Source: an uncultured bacterium
Lineage (GTDB): Bacteria; Desulfobacterota; GWC2-55-46
Direction: 5' to 3'
Assembly: GCA_905339405.1 (NCBI GenBank)
Contig: CAJPGC010000029.1
Location: forward strand, 1 to 64,000
Length of the DNA: 64,000 nucleotides
The notes beneath the pieces were generated by a model. It was not told the DNA's origin, did not search any database, and was given only the letters and a program-made list of their open reading frames with translations. A program made the translations under genes and the position numbers. Positions 25,539 through 39,207 of the stretch are shown piece by piece (position 1 is the first letter of the stretch; each line of letters begins with the position of its first letter).

Positions 25539-26684
25539 TCACTCCTGTTTATTCTGACTAATTACGCTTGAGTTATCAGAGTTGTCTTTGTCGTACCCAT
25601 TTGGACACCATGTCACTGGTTTTCTTGATAACTCCGAGATCAATGCATTTACAAGTAGTTTCCCCCCCGAAAAAGGCAAGTAAAGACCAACAACTCTCGG
25701 GAACTTTATGGTCTCGGGTTGGTGCAACATCGCCTTTATCGAACCAATCGCCACAAATGCATTTTCCGCCGTGGTTCTGCTAAGCTCACTCTGCACAGGC
25801 AAAGCGGAAGCAACGGCCTGGCTGTTAACACCAAGCGTTTGTACTGTGAGGGATCCCATCAATCGTTTTGCCTCAGCTTCTGCTCCAATGACTCCAATGC
25901 CCGATATGGTTGCGTCTCTTGACGTAGATACTCCTTCTGCAACAATTCGAAGGCCAATTCCAACATAAATCGGCACATTGAATTCCTCGTAGCCATTTTT
26001 TGTAAGTGCTTCTCGCTCTACTATAGTTAGATTCTCTGAACTTTTAACATTGTATTGCTCTGAACCCGGTACAATTTCCCGCTTTTCAGCTTTCAACCCA
26101 AGATATGGTTTATCCCACTGCAATCCATTCACAACATACGTTTCATTTTCAATATACAATTCATTACCCAATAATAAAGCAGGTTTGCGCTCGGTTTTCC
26201 GTTCGTTTCTAAAAGTACCATCGTTGCTGTCACGGGTGTTGGAGACATATTTTACGAGCACTGTCTTTTGGATTAATACGCTTTTATTCACAGTATCCGA
26301 ATTAACATAGTCTGCAGTTAATTTATAGGCAGAACCGGCTTTTCCTGCTTTTGATACGCCATAAGTTACATTACCTTTAGAATCTGAGGATTCCATACTC
26401 ATACGTACGGCATTATCAGGCAGCATATCAAGAAGCTTAACCTTTTTTGTCTTTAAATCATCTCCAATATCAGAGTAATTAATTGTACATTTACCAGTCT
26501 CTATTTGTACCTTAGTGGGGTCGATTGGAATATAGGTATACCCAGATACTTCTTCACCTAGCGATGTTGGTCTTACCTGATTGCTTAAACCGCATCCAGT
26601 AATAGCAAACAAAAGAATACATATGACTGACACAGAAGCAACACGGCACCCGCCATTTAAGATTAATTTTTTAAAATAGAACAA
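25539..26684 (-). CDS. hypothetical lipoprotein in AT-rich island
   Basis: LLFAITGC lipobox; AT-rich relative to flanks. Confidence 0.65.
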   Translation of the reverse strand: MFYFKKLILNGGCRVASVSVICILLFAITGCGLSNQVRPTSLGEEVSGYTYIPIDPTKVQIETGKCTINYSDIGDDLKTKKVKLLDMLPDNAVRMSMESSDSKGNVTYGVSKAGKAGSAYKLTADYVNSDTVNKSVLIQKTVLVKYVSNTRDSNDGTFRNERKTERKPALLLGNELYIENETYVVNGLQWDKPYLGLKAEKREIVPGSEQYNVKSSENLTIVEREALTKNGYEEFNVPIYVGIGLRIVAEGVSTSRDATISGIGVIGAEAEAKRLMGSLTVQTLGVNSQAVASALPVQSELSRTTAENAFVAIGSIKAMLHQPETIKFPRVVGLYLPFSGGKLLVNALISELSRKPVTWCPNGYDKDNSDNSSVISQNKQE

Positions 26685-26942
26685 GACATCCCCCTTTGGA
26701 AAATTATGTAATCATCTATATTGTCTATTTTATTTCAACTTAGAAACAAAATACACTAATCTCTAACTTAAAACAAGAAATTTCATTTTACTTTTATAAT
26801 GATGGGACTGCGTACAAATGACAGGTTTAAAGGCACTTTCTTTTCACATTTTGCATTTGACAAAAGAAAGACTATATTGACAATTCATAATCGAGATAGT
26901 ACATCTGACTAATTGAACATTTGTATACAAGGAGAATAATCG

Positions 26943-27941
26943 ATGCTTGAGCGTAGATCCTCACCACAGTCCATAGCTTGGTTTGTAGACTTATTTCATG
27001 GCAAGCAACTTAATCTTGACCCACCTTATCAAAGGCGTAGTGTTTGGAATCAAGATTATAAACAATATTTTATCGATACGATTCTGAGAAATTACCCTTC
27101 GCCGCCTGTATTTTTAGATGTAAAAATTACTCCAGGTGGAAGGACCGTATATCATGTTGTCGACGGGAAACAACGCCTCTCTGCAATTCTAGAATATCTG
27201 ACCGACATGTTTTGCACATCAGAAAGACATGCAGATCCGACAGTTGCAAATAAATATTTTTCAGATTTAAATGATGACTTTCAGAATCGCTTTCTTCGAT
27301 ACATAATTCCGGTTGAATTCCTTGAAAATGCTGATGATACCGAATTAGAAGAGGCTTTCGATCGCCTAAACAGAAATGTGGCCAAGCTCAATGCACAAGA
27401 ACTCCGTAATGCAAAATATTCAGGCGTTTTTATTTCATTAATGGAAACATTAGCCGATGACCCATTCTGGCATGACATTGGTTTGGCCACAACCTCCCGT
27501 ATCCGTCGAATGTTAGATATTGAATACGTCTCAGAAATTTTTTTGCTTACTATGCATGGAATCCAGGAAGGTAAAACCTACCTTGACCAAGCTTATGCAG
27601 ATTATGACGAGGAGATACCAGACATTGAAACACACCGCAGAATTTACGAGAACTGCAAAACATTTATGGTTCAGCTATGGCCACACTTAGGGACAGATCG
27701 CTTCATCAACCTTGCAGATTTTTATAGCCTTTGGGCCGCAGTGATGACAAGTCGAATAGATCATATCAATGTCATTGAAACAGCACGCAGACTAAGCGAA
27801 TTCGCGAACTCGGTACGAAGCGGGTCTGCATTTGGTGAAGCCCAGGAGTATCTAGTTGCAGCCACACAAGGGTCGAACAAAAGAGCAAACCGGGAGCTTC
27901 GTGCCAGAATCCTTAAAAGTTTGTTTGTTGAACAGGAGTAA
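26943..27941 (+). CDS. DUF262 (GmrSD N-terminal / ParB-Srx-like) protein
   Basis: LDPPYQRRSVWNQDYKQYFIDTILRNYPSPPVFLDVK...YHVVDGKQRLSAI (DGQQR-type motif); no DUF1524/HNH C-terminal domain seen. Confidence 0.85.
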   Translation: MLERRSSPQSIAWFVDLFHGKQLNLDPPYQRRSVWNQDYKQYFIDTILRNYPSPPVFLDVKITPGGRTVYHVVDGKQRLSAILEYLTDMFCTSERHADPTVANKYFSDLNDDFQNRFLRYIIPVEFLENADDTELEEAFDRLNRNVAKLNAQELRNAKYSGVFISLMETLADDPFWHDIGLATTSRIRRMLDIEYVSEIFLLTMHGIQEGKTYLDQAYADYDEEIPDIETHRRIYENCKTFMVQLWPHLGTDRFINLADFYSLWAAVMTSRIDHINVIETARRLSEFANSVRSGSAFGEAQEYLVAATQGSNKRANRELRARILKSLFVEQE

Positions 27942-27944
27942 TTT

Positions 27945-28904
27945 ATGATTCCCTCTCAGCTAGGTGTTGCTTACACTACTCTTGCTATCGATCTGCAAAC
28001 ACTTAAGTCACGTGTTGATTCTATTCTTAAGGCCTATGCAGAAGAACGGGATGGACAATATGCGAGTAGAATAAAGACCGCTGATAGCATTTTCGAAAAA
28101 GCTGTTTTGGGAAGCTATAAGAAGCTTACTGACATTGAAGATCTGTTTGCTTCGACAATTATCCTATCCACAACTCCGATAGGTAGTGCTCTGACTGTAC
28201 TCACCGAATCACTATCAGAACACTTCGTTGTGCATAAGACCAATTCAAACCGGACTAGACAACCCACAGAATTCATCTACGACGACCTCCACTATATTCT
28301 TAGTCTCAAAGATTCTCCGCTACTCCTCAACAAATACCTCCTCGCATTTCGATTCGAGCTGCAGGTAAAATCATATCTGAGACACGGGTGGGCAAAAGCT
28401 ACTCATGACACTATATACAAATCTCCCATAGAGTCCTGGAGAGCATCAAGAGTTGCTGCCCAGACAAGAGCCGCACTTGAGATGATTGAAGCAGCACTGG
28501 CGACAGGCGAAAACCTTTTGCCAGATGAGGCGGCACAACGATATAAGCCAATCGATGAACGCATTGCAGTGTTGGGCATTCTGCTTAATTGGTGGCACGG
28601 TCCGTTTCCTGAGAACCGACGACGCTTGGGTATATTCACATTGAGCATCTTGGAAATGGCCAATCTTACTCTGGAAGCTTTTTCAGCACTTTTGGAGACC
28701 CAACGAGCAAGAGAACTACAAAATATTCGTTCCCTTCCCGTACAACAGGCGATACTTGTTATTCTAATAGAAAACTCATTTAATTCAATAATTAGCAAAG
28801 TACAAAAAAAAGGGAATAGCTATCTTGTGATCACAAGAGAAATGGAAGATGTTTCTGAAAAATGCAAACAGATTCCCTTTGATATTCGTTTCGAGCTACC
28901 CTGA
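27945..28904 (+). CDS. diverged RelA/SpoT-domain nucleotidyltransferase-like protein
   Basis: RIKTADSIFEK (RxKxxxSIxxK), TDIEDLFASTIIL (DLxG/A), EFIYDDLHYIL (YxxxHY), FELQVKSYLRHGWAKATHDTIYK (ExQxRTxxxHxWAxxxHxxxYK). Confidence 0.75.
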   Translation: MIPSQLGVAYTTLAIDLQTLKSRVDSILKAYAEERDGQYASRIKTADSIFEKAVLGSYKKLTDIEDLFASTIILSTTPIGSALTVLTESLSEHFVVHKTNSNRTRQPTEFIYDDLHYILSLKDSPLLLNKYLLAFRFELQVKSYLRHGWAKATHDTIYKSPIESWRASRVAAQTRAALEMIEAALATGENLLPDEAAQRYKPIDERIAVLGILLNWWHGPFPENRRRLGIFTLSILEMANLTLEAFSALLETQRARELQNIRSLPVQQAILVILIENSFNSIISKVQKKGNSYLVITREMEDVSEKCKQIPFDIRFELP

Positions 28905-29185: not shown

Positions 29186-29261
29186 TGGCGTCCCCACGGG
29201 GATTCGAACCCCGGTCGCCGCCGTGAAAGGGCGGTGTCCTTGGCCTCTAGACGATGGGGAC
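29186..29261 (-). tRNA. tRNA-Glu (TTC)
   Basis: Minus strand gtccccatcgtctagaggccaaggacaccgccctttcacggcggcgaccggggttcgaatccccgtggggacgcca; anticodon TTC. Confidence 0.95.
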
Positions 29262-29316
29262 ATTCTTATTTTCTTGTAGGGTGGGCTCTGCCCACCGGCA
29301 CTGCTTCAAGACTTAG

Positions 29317-29460
29317 CCCCACGGGGATTGAGCTCGCACATCCATGTGCTCGCCACTAAAGGGTTTGCGCTTCGCGCAAATCCAAATTTGCTGTCCTGCA
29401 AATTTGTCAAACCCCGGCCGCCTGAAAAAGCGGCCCTTACGATGGGGACATTCTTATTTT
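29317..29460 (-). pseudogene. degenerate, interrupted partial copy of tRNA-Glu region
   Basis: ccccacggggatt and ccccgg..cgcc...acgatggggacattcttatttt match 29192-29272, with about 78 bp inserted and internal deletions. Confidence 0.6.
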
Positions 29461-38454: not shown

Positions 38455-39207
38455 ATGTCAAATATTAGTTCAGAGACTCTTTTTCATTTTACGAATCTTG
38501 AGAATCTTAAAGGAATACTCGAAAATGAGTTTTGCCCCAGATATTCAATTGAAGTAGTTGAATATGCAGGAGTGATTATTGAAACTGCTTACCCTATGGT
38601 GTGCTTCTGTGACATACCATTATCTCAAATAAAAGCACACCTAAAACACTATGGGAATTACGGAATTGGAATGTCAAGAGAGTGGATATTCTCGAAAAAA
38701 TTAAATCCAGTAATGTATCTTAGAATAGGATCGGACTTACATGAATGGTTATTTCGTTTAACGAAGGGGACTGGTTCTTCATGGGAAAGCGCAAATTCGC
38801 ATATAATCGAAATCACAAAAGGACTTGAATTTTTATTGCGGCATGTAAAACCCTTTCAGGGAAAATCAAGGAGAACTGGTGCTAAAATTAAATTCTATAA
38901 CGAAAGAGAATGGAGGTATATCCCTTTTCTTTTTGAAGAAGACATGGAGCAAATTCATATAGGACCATTAAGAGTAGACCAATTTCGAGACCCGAATTGC
39001 CTTAGAGAACACAATGAAAAGATAGAACGGTTTAAACTCAGTTTTGACCCTAAAGACATTAAGTACATTATCGTTAATAAAGAGCGTGAGATACTGGAGA
39101 TGGTGGAATACCTACACAAGGTTAAATCCCCCAAATATGACGATGACACCATAAAAATTTTAACATCGCGAATTATTACTTGTGAGCAGATACAAAAAGA
39201 TTTCTAA
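38455..39207 (+). CDS. AbiGi-family abortive infection (antitoxin) protein
   Basis: LFHFTNLENLKGILENEFCPRYSIE...YPMVCFCDIPLSQIKAHLKHYGNYGIGMSREWIFSKKLNPVMYL; markedly AT-rich. Confidence 0.8.
   Translation: MSNISSETLFHFTNLENLKGILENEFCPRYSIEVVEYAGVIIETAYPMVCFCDIPLSQIKAHLKHYGNYGIGMSREWIFSKKLNPVMYLRIGSDLHEWLFRLTKGTGSSWESANSHIIEITKGLEFLLRHVKPFQGKSRRTGAKIKFYNEREWRYIPFLFEEDMEQIHIGPLRVDQFRDPNCLREHNEKIERFKLSFDPKDIKYIIVNKEREILEMVEYLHKVKSPKYDDDTIKILTSRIITCEQIQKDF

Follow-up and report, generated by a model that had tools for sequence, protein, structure and literature searches.

A conserved two-gene unit of a DUF262 protein and a RelA/SpoT-fold protein, proposed to act in abortive defence

Two adjacent genes, ORF1 and ORF2, form one conserved unit: they are neighbours across phyla, and their sequences diverge together. 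We studied the pair in a 64,000-nt stretch of a contig from an uncultured bacterium of the Desulfobacterota (the window), where ORF1 encodes a DUF262 (GmrSD_N) protein and ORF2 a protein that is, by fold, a RelA/SpoT-type pyrophosphokinase, for which we propose an effector or toxin role. With slightly more confidence than doubt, we propose that the pair acts against phages or other mobile elements in an abortive defence, ORF1 being an NTP-switch sensor that controls ORF2 as a pyrophosphokinase effector. ORF1 would be an NTP switch with a ParB/Srx fold, of the same type as GmrS, SspE and BrxU, in which an HNH nuclease was lost or never present. In the resting state, it would interact with ORF2 and hold it inactive. 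On infection, ORF1 would most likely sense DNA that is foreign or carries the wrong modification, or respond to the state of an adjacent restriction-modification (R-M) system, and an NTP-driven change would free ORF2. The freed ORF2 would then use ATP to pyrophosphorylate a cellular acceptor, either the 3′ end of tRNA or a purine nucleotide; this would stop translation or drain nucleotides, so that growth would be arrested and the infected cell would yield no phage.

Conservation of the gene pair

In the window, the stop codon of ORF1 and the ATG of ORF2 are separated by 3 nt, and both genes lie on the forward strand. The G+C content is 0.355–0.423 at 26–29 kb, compared with about 0.50–0.62 in the surroundings, a region of about 0.59 overall. 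Both the coordinates and the AT-rich island described in an initial annotation of this DNA are confirmed. The Shine-Dalgarno sequence of ORF2 lies inside the end of ORF1, and translational coupling is therefore likely. The features of the locus are collected in Table 1. The pair was absent from three genomes of the window's genus, two of which are incomplete.

Table 1 Features of the ORF1–ORF2 locus (positions in the window)
Feature	Position	Strand	Basis or conservation
Sigma-70-like candidate promoter TTGACA-16-GACAAT, 5′ of ORF1	26857-26884	+	10/12 consensus match; consensus scan only (9 found vs 5.9 expected in shuffles), not evidence of function
AAGGAG, 5′ of ORF1	26929-26934	+	Read from sequence
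ORF1, DUF262/GmrSD_N protein, 332 aa	26943-27941	+	ATG start; PF03235 match
D74-G-K-Q-R78, DGQQR-like NTP-pocket motif of DUF262	27162-27176	+	Invariant in 57/57 aligned ORF1s
Shine-Dalgarno AGGAG of ORF2	27934-27938	+	Overlaps last codons of ORF1
ORF2, predicted RelA/SpoT-fold pyrophosphokinase, 319 aa	27945-28904	+	ATG start; PF04607, AlphaFold2, Foldseek
R42-x-K44-xxx-S48-xxx-K52, donor (ATP) phosphate/adenine site	28068-28100	+	Invariant 69/69
D66 (Mg2+ ligand) to T71 (position of second adenine-stacking Arg)	28140-28157	+	D66 69/69
G-loop Y112-D-D-L-H116, acceptor site	28278-28292	+	Alignment of 69 ORF2s
E138-x-Q140 ... H154-xxx-Y158-K159, second Mg2+ ligand and ribose contact	28356-28421	+	Alignment of 69 ORF2s
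ORF2 C-terminal helical region, residues ~195-319	28527-28901	+	AlphaFold2 helices 201-308 at high confidence

We scanned one genome per GTDB species with an alignment of ORF1 and two plasmid relatives, making no use of ORF2, and found 80 loci. A full ORF2 homologue was the next gene downstream, in the same order and on the same strand, in 69 of the 80, which is far more than expected by chance; the neighbourhood survey that the initial annotation had suggested thus finds the pair conserved as neighbours across phyla. In three further loci, ORF2 was either cut by the contig end (L026 and L039) or broken into two pieces (L090). One contig (L086) ended before the ORF2 position could be seen, and ORF1 stood alone in seven loci (L017 and six Nitrospirota). 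With ORF2 start codons picked nearest the end of ORF1, the gap between the genes ranged from −26 to +24 nt (median 1.5). The pair spans more than a dozen bacterial phyla and one archaeon, with hosts among the Chloroflexota, Actinomycetota, Bacteroidota, Cyanobacteriota, Pseudomonadota, Nitrospirota, Acidobacteriota, Myxococcota, Planctomycetota, Cloacimonadota, Bipolaricaulota, Bacillota and Melainabacteria, together with a Thermoplasmata archaeon; single host assignments may be wrong, because some genomes are metagenome bins. Pairwise distances among ORF1s and among ORF2s were correlated (r = 0.86, a value that includes a contribution from common species descent), the maximum in 2,000 permutations being 0.16.

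Pairing was also found from the ORF2 side, in a test that covered one phylum and plasmids. Among 395 genomes of the window's phylum, there were two full-length ORF2s (288 and 266 bits; the next match scored 114), both with ORF1 directly upstream; all weaker matches were to small synthetases of other kinds, which had no ORF1 beside them. When six different ORF2s were searched against plasmids, the matches at full-family strength were exclusively to Rhizobium records. A DUF262 gene lay upstream of ORF2 in all three records examined, two of which are Ti-plasmid records whose ORF2 is split by an IS5 element. The pair also has four relatives on viral contigs; three keep ORF2, the fourth is truncated by the end of its contig, and all four adjoin methyltransferase or BsuBI-like restriction endonuclease genes. 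A pattern scan that used the single ORF2 sequence found nothing in either GTDB or viral contigs, and the Pseudomonas version of the pair was in no E. coli genome at blastn sensitivity.

A two-gene operon with likely translational coupling that is present on conjugative plasmids would also be expected of a plain type II toxin-antitoxin system, in which ORF2 would be a toxSAS-like toxin, ORF1 its antitoxin and nothing more, and addiction would stabilise islands, plasmids and R-M loci without any sensing of phage. In keeping with this, ORF1 occurs without ORF2 (L017 and the six Nitrospirota loci), and a full ORF2 without ORF1 was never found in the sets searched. However, ORF1 is large (332–366 aa across the family), has an invariant NTP pocket and comes from a family of defence sensors, whereas the toxSAS antitoxins described in one study are a hydrolase and type II-like antitoxins (PMC11782079); the coupling of one subclade to R-M systems (see below) likewise speaks for a role in defence. 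We consider a plain toxin-antitoxin system unlikely.

Predicted structures and active site

ORF1 matched PF03235 (GmrSD_N) with an E-value of 5.6e-21 (76 bits; cut-off 33.2), as did 55 of 55 members of an ORF1-family alignment, and the same Pfam search gave no match to an HNH/DUF1524 nuclease domain in ORF1 or ORF2. ORF1 is thus what the initial annotation had taken it for, a DUF262 protein with a DGKQR motif (residues 74–78) and no HNH domain. DUF262 domains, which are present in GmrSD, BrxU, SspE and PD-T4-2 (PMC10952713), are NTP-binding and NTP-hydrolysing, and in the first three they act as modification sensors (PMC10952713; PMC8565348; PMC11662687). AlphaFold2 models were made of ORF1 and ORF2, each folded as a single chain. 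The ORF1 model (pLDDT 93.6) had as its best but weak Foldseek matches the CDP-bound ParB structure 6sdk and BrxU (7p9k); an ORF1 profile matched nothing in the PDB by sequence, and phmmer searches of the PDB with single ORF1 or single ORF2 sequences gave chance-level matches only. Judged from the model, ORF1 is a ParB/Srx-type NTP-binding fold with an all-helical C-terminal part. We propose that it is a nuclease-free DUF262 switch that acts as the sensor or regulator of the pair.

ORF2 matched PF04607 (RelA_SpoT) with an E-value of 8.3e-10 (39.4 bits; curated cut-off 27), as did 68 of 68 members of its family. Its AlphaFold2 model (pLDDT 91.5) had CapRel (7ztb) and RelQ (5dec) as best PDB matches in Foldseek, with E-values of about 1e-5, followed by RelP, an exported small alarmone synthetase (SAS), Tas1 and FaRel2; TM-scores against SAS enzymes, normalised by target, were 0.5–0.7. 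The RelA/SpoT fold read earlier from motifs therefore holds at the level of domain and model. An ORF2 profile searched against the PDB found SAS enzymes and CapRel, with matches stopping at about residue 161, and alignment of a RelP chain to the profile supports the residue mapping used below. The C-terminal helical extension of ORF2, of ~125 residues, has no counterpart in small alarmone synthetases; on the model, we propose that these helices are a regulatory or partner-binding part.

The appearance of RelP and RelQ among the fold and profile matches would suit a housekeeping alarmone synthetase of the stress response that happens to lie beside an unrelated DUF262 gene. This explanation is contradicted by the patchy distribution and strict pairing of ORF2, which occurs in 2 of the 395 phylum genomes, lies in an AT-rich island and co-diverges with ORF1; we regard it as extremely improbable.

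Judged from the alignment of 69 ORF2s, ORF2 keeps both Mg2+ ligands and the donor-site residues of alarmone synthetases and toxSAS. The donor-site residues R42, K44, S48 and K52 correspond to R78, K80, S84 and K88 of SaRelP (PMC5794853) and to R64, K66, S70 and K74 of FaRel2 (PMC11782079). The Mg2+ ligands D66 and E138 correspond to SaRelP D107 and E174, and H154 to SaRelP H190 (PMC5794853); E138 and Q140 are FaRel2 E145 and Q147 (PMC11782079). Residues E138, Q140, Y158 and K159 are present in 69 of 69 sequences and H154 in 67; W165 and R169 are also invariant. The catalytic Asp and Glu that had looked retained in the window's ORF2 are therefore constant throughout the family.

Two positions depart from this pattern. 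Position 71 corresponds to SaRelP R112 (PMC5794853), FaRel2 R95 (PMC11782079) and CapRel R116, the second adenine-stacking Arg, which is typical of active RSH members but not of the fold itself. This Arg is missing from the window's ORF2, which has Thr, as the initial annotation had noted for the Arg of the DxxGxR motif, and the replacement is typical of the family: Thr occupies the position in 59 of 69 members and Arg in four, all of them among the nine members of the window's subclade. The G-loop residue Y112 corresponds to SaRelP Y151 (PMC5794853) and CapRel Y155 (PMC9712102); it is Tyr in 9 of 9 members of the window's subclade (I) and Phe in 59 of the 60 others. With Thr71 in most members and Phe in the G-loop of nearly all members beyond subclade I, the family may differ from toxSAS in activity or substrate. 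Since FaRel2 R95 contacts both the donor and the acceptor adenine (PMC11782079), the acceptor choice of ORF2 may be changed. The family would supply naturally occurring RelA/SpoT enzymes whose adenine/acceptor pocket is systematically altered, which would help in studying how this fold selects its substrate.

Loss of the second adenine-stacking Arg in most members, together with the G-loop Phe in two subclades, might instead mean that ORF2 is catalytically dead, or binds nucleotides and does no more, and serves as an allosteric partner of ORF1. However, a scaffold would not need the two Mg2+ ligands or the main phosphate contacts, all of which are invariant across the 69 sequences. We therefore regard a dead ORF2 as very improbable and favour a catalytically active pyrophosphokinase.

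Restriction-modification linkage and known systems

Among 77 genes lying ≤200 bp from a pair, Pfam searches found N6_Mtase 19 times, Eco57I 14 times and BsuBI_PstI_RE 12 times; outside restriction-modification, no family exceeded 3. An R-M gene lay within about 3.5 kb in 36 of 70 paired loci and within 100 bp in 31, on the same strand in 26 of these. By comparison, just 23 of 390 genomes of the window's phylum have any member of the BsuBI/PstI family. Linkage differed between subclades, which were taken from the ORF1 tree or, for 17 loci, assigned according to the best BLAST match: R-M genes were found at 32 of 34 loci in subclade III, where both negative loci are cut by contig ends, at 2 of 29 in subclade II and at 3 of 9 in subclade I, which includes the window. 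The Fisher test of subclade III against subclade II gave p = 3e-13, which is optimistic because the loci are related.

Linkage of this kind would be expected if the pair guarded the R-M system, killing or arresting cells when the adjacent system is inhibited, lost or bypassed, and so watching the host system rather than phage DNA; PrrC beside EcoprrI is the comparison case. The R-M genes of subclade III are often in one operon with the pair, and where Nitrospirota loci of this subclade are without ORF2, the flanks read contained no R-M genes either. On the other hand, subclades I and II, the window included, mostly have no R-M genes nearby (5 of 38 positive), and neither PF06616 (BsuBI/PstI endonuclease) nor PF02384 (N6_Mtase) was found in the window's genome. 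The window's copy therefore acts without such an R-M system, and the coupling is inapplicable to it in that form. We judge a guard role to be quite improbable, and continue to favour an abortive defence in which ORF1 senses infection. The invariance of the catalytic residues, the co-divergence of the two proteins, the linkage to R-M genes and the setting among mobile elements give better support to the initial proposal that ORF2 is an effector and ORF1 its regulator, which we infer from these features taken together.

A more specific form of the defence reading can be put forward tentatively, as possible but doubtful: a widespread immune module, apparently without a name, in which a DUF262 switch lacking a nuclease would read the modification state of DNA (in subclade III, the mark made by the methyltransferase of the same operon) and license a pyrophosphokinase of the RelA/SpoT fold whose base-binding pocket is changed and whose acceptor may be new. 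If this were true, the pair would add a third arm to type II R-M systems, which would modify, cut and, if cutting failed, arrest the cell by pyrophosphorylation. It would also join two defence logics that have so far stood apart, modification sensing by DUF262 proteins (GmrSD, SspE, BrxU) and pyrophosphokinase toxins of the RelA/SpoT type (toxSAS, CapRel). That the pair is almost always joined to R-M loci of the BsuBI/PstI-like and N6-adenine kinds in one subclade suggests an overlooked cell-arrest arm in many type II R-M operons that pass for 'simple'.

In PADLOC, the window's ORF1 matched NsnA (2.3e-33, positions 50–299 of 385) and part of the PD-T4-2_A model (1.5e-22; family best 7.4e-24). 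NsnA was matched over part of the model by 57 of 57 ORF1s (best 9.7e-42), and the candidate PDC-S33 by 61 of 69 ORF2s (best 2.8e-13), the match of the window's ORF2 being weak. Since these matches are partial and modest, none of the three models is evidently built from the ORF1/ORF2 family. A literature search, which took in neither preprints nor most subscription papers, found no paper describing a DUF262 and RelA/SpoT pair, and papers describing NsnA or PDC-S33 were likewise not found. The initial annotation gave no named system for this pair, and none was found in PADLOC or in the papers searched; the pair appears to be unnamed, a DUF262-plus-effector operon resembling those of defence systems, with a toxSAS-like effector.

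The pair shares features with several described systems. Like the toxSAS FaRel2, PhRel2 and CapRel, the last of which blocks phage through tRNA pyrophosphorylation (PMC9712102), ORF2 has a RelA/SpoT synthetase fold with the R-x-K-xxx-S-xxx-K donor site, the Asp and Glu-x-Gln, and toxSAS too have a bicistronic or fused regulator. Unlike them, ORF2 carries the long helical C-terminus and usually lacks the second adenine-stacking Arg, and its partner is a DUF262 NTP-binding protein rather than a Panacea, pseudo-ZFD or hydrolase antitoxin. GmrSD, BrxU, SspE and DndI, modification-sensing restriction enzymes that combine DUF262 with DUF1524, share the DUF262 NTP pocket with ORF1, and SspE and DndI lie beside DNA-modification genes, as ORF1 does in one subclade; in the pair, however, there is no DUF1524/HNH nuclease, and the effector is a separate gene for a predicted pyrophosphokinase. 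PD-T4-2 also consists of a DUF262 protein and a separate effector gene, but that effector is a HEPN protein rather than of the RelA/SpoT type, and ORF1 matches only part of PD-T4-2_A. Finally, type II R-M loci of the BsuBI/PstI type have the pair appended in one subclade, although the pair occurs without R-M genes in other subclades; classically, these systems are of two genes, without the pair.

Other DUF262 pairings and surroundings of the pair

Distant plasmid relatives of ORF1 precede other genes. In L095, L098 and L100, the related DUF262 gene lies directly upstream of a gene for a Ser/Thr protein kinase (Pkinase E-values down to 7e-31) whose nearest PADLOC models are mads_6 and PD-T4-6; we regard this arrangement as a parallel two-gene unit. 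In L096 (2438-4164) and L099 (2474-4172), a gene of ~210 aa without a known Pfam or PADLOC family follows, possibly forming another DUF262-plus-effector pair; a HEPN identity for these ~210-aa partners received no confirmation from Pfam or PADLOC. In the tree, all RelA/SpoT-paired ORF1s lie on one side of a split (support 97/93) from the kinase-paired ORF1s. Given these partners, the DUF262 part seems to pair with a range of effectors, of which PD-T4-2 offers a further example.

The six Nitrospirota loci with an orphan ORF1 (L048, L054, L061, L062, L065 and L036) lie among ordinary chromosomal genes, with neither ORF2 nor R-M genes, and these ORF1s may have taken on another role. On the Rhizobium Ti-type plasmids L008 (3364-5645) and L009 (same positions), an IS5-family transposase splits ORF2 and leaves ORF1 intact.

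In the window, the copy is a stand-alone pair in its AT-rich island. An AT-rich, lipoprotein-like ORF without a Pfam or PADLOC match lies 5′ of the pair on the reverse strand (25539-26684) and probably belongs to the same island. An exact 22-bp direct repeat (29251-29272 and 29439-29460) is found at one end of tRNA-Glu and before tRNA-Lys, and may have been left by recombination at the side of the island that faces the tRNA genes. A second AT-rich patch, ~10 kb downstream of the pair, holds an abortive phage resistance gene of the AbiGi family on the forward strand (38455-39207; PF10899 E = 1.4e-33, PADLOC AbiGi E = 4.3e-52), flanked by haem-cytochrome genes on one side and a 6-phosphogluconolactonase-like gene on the other.
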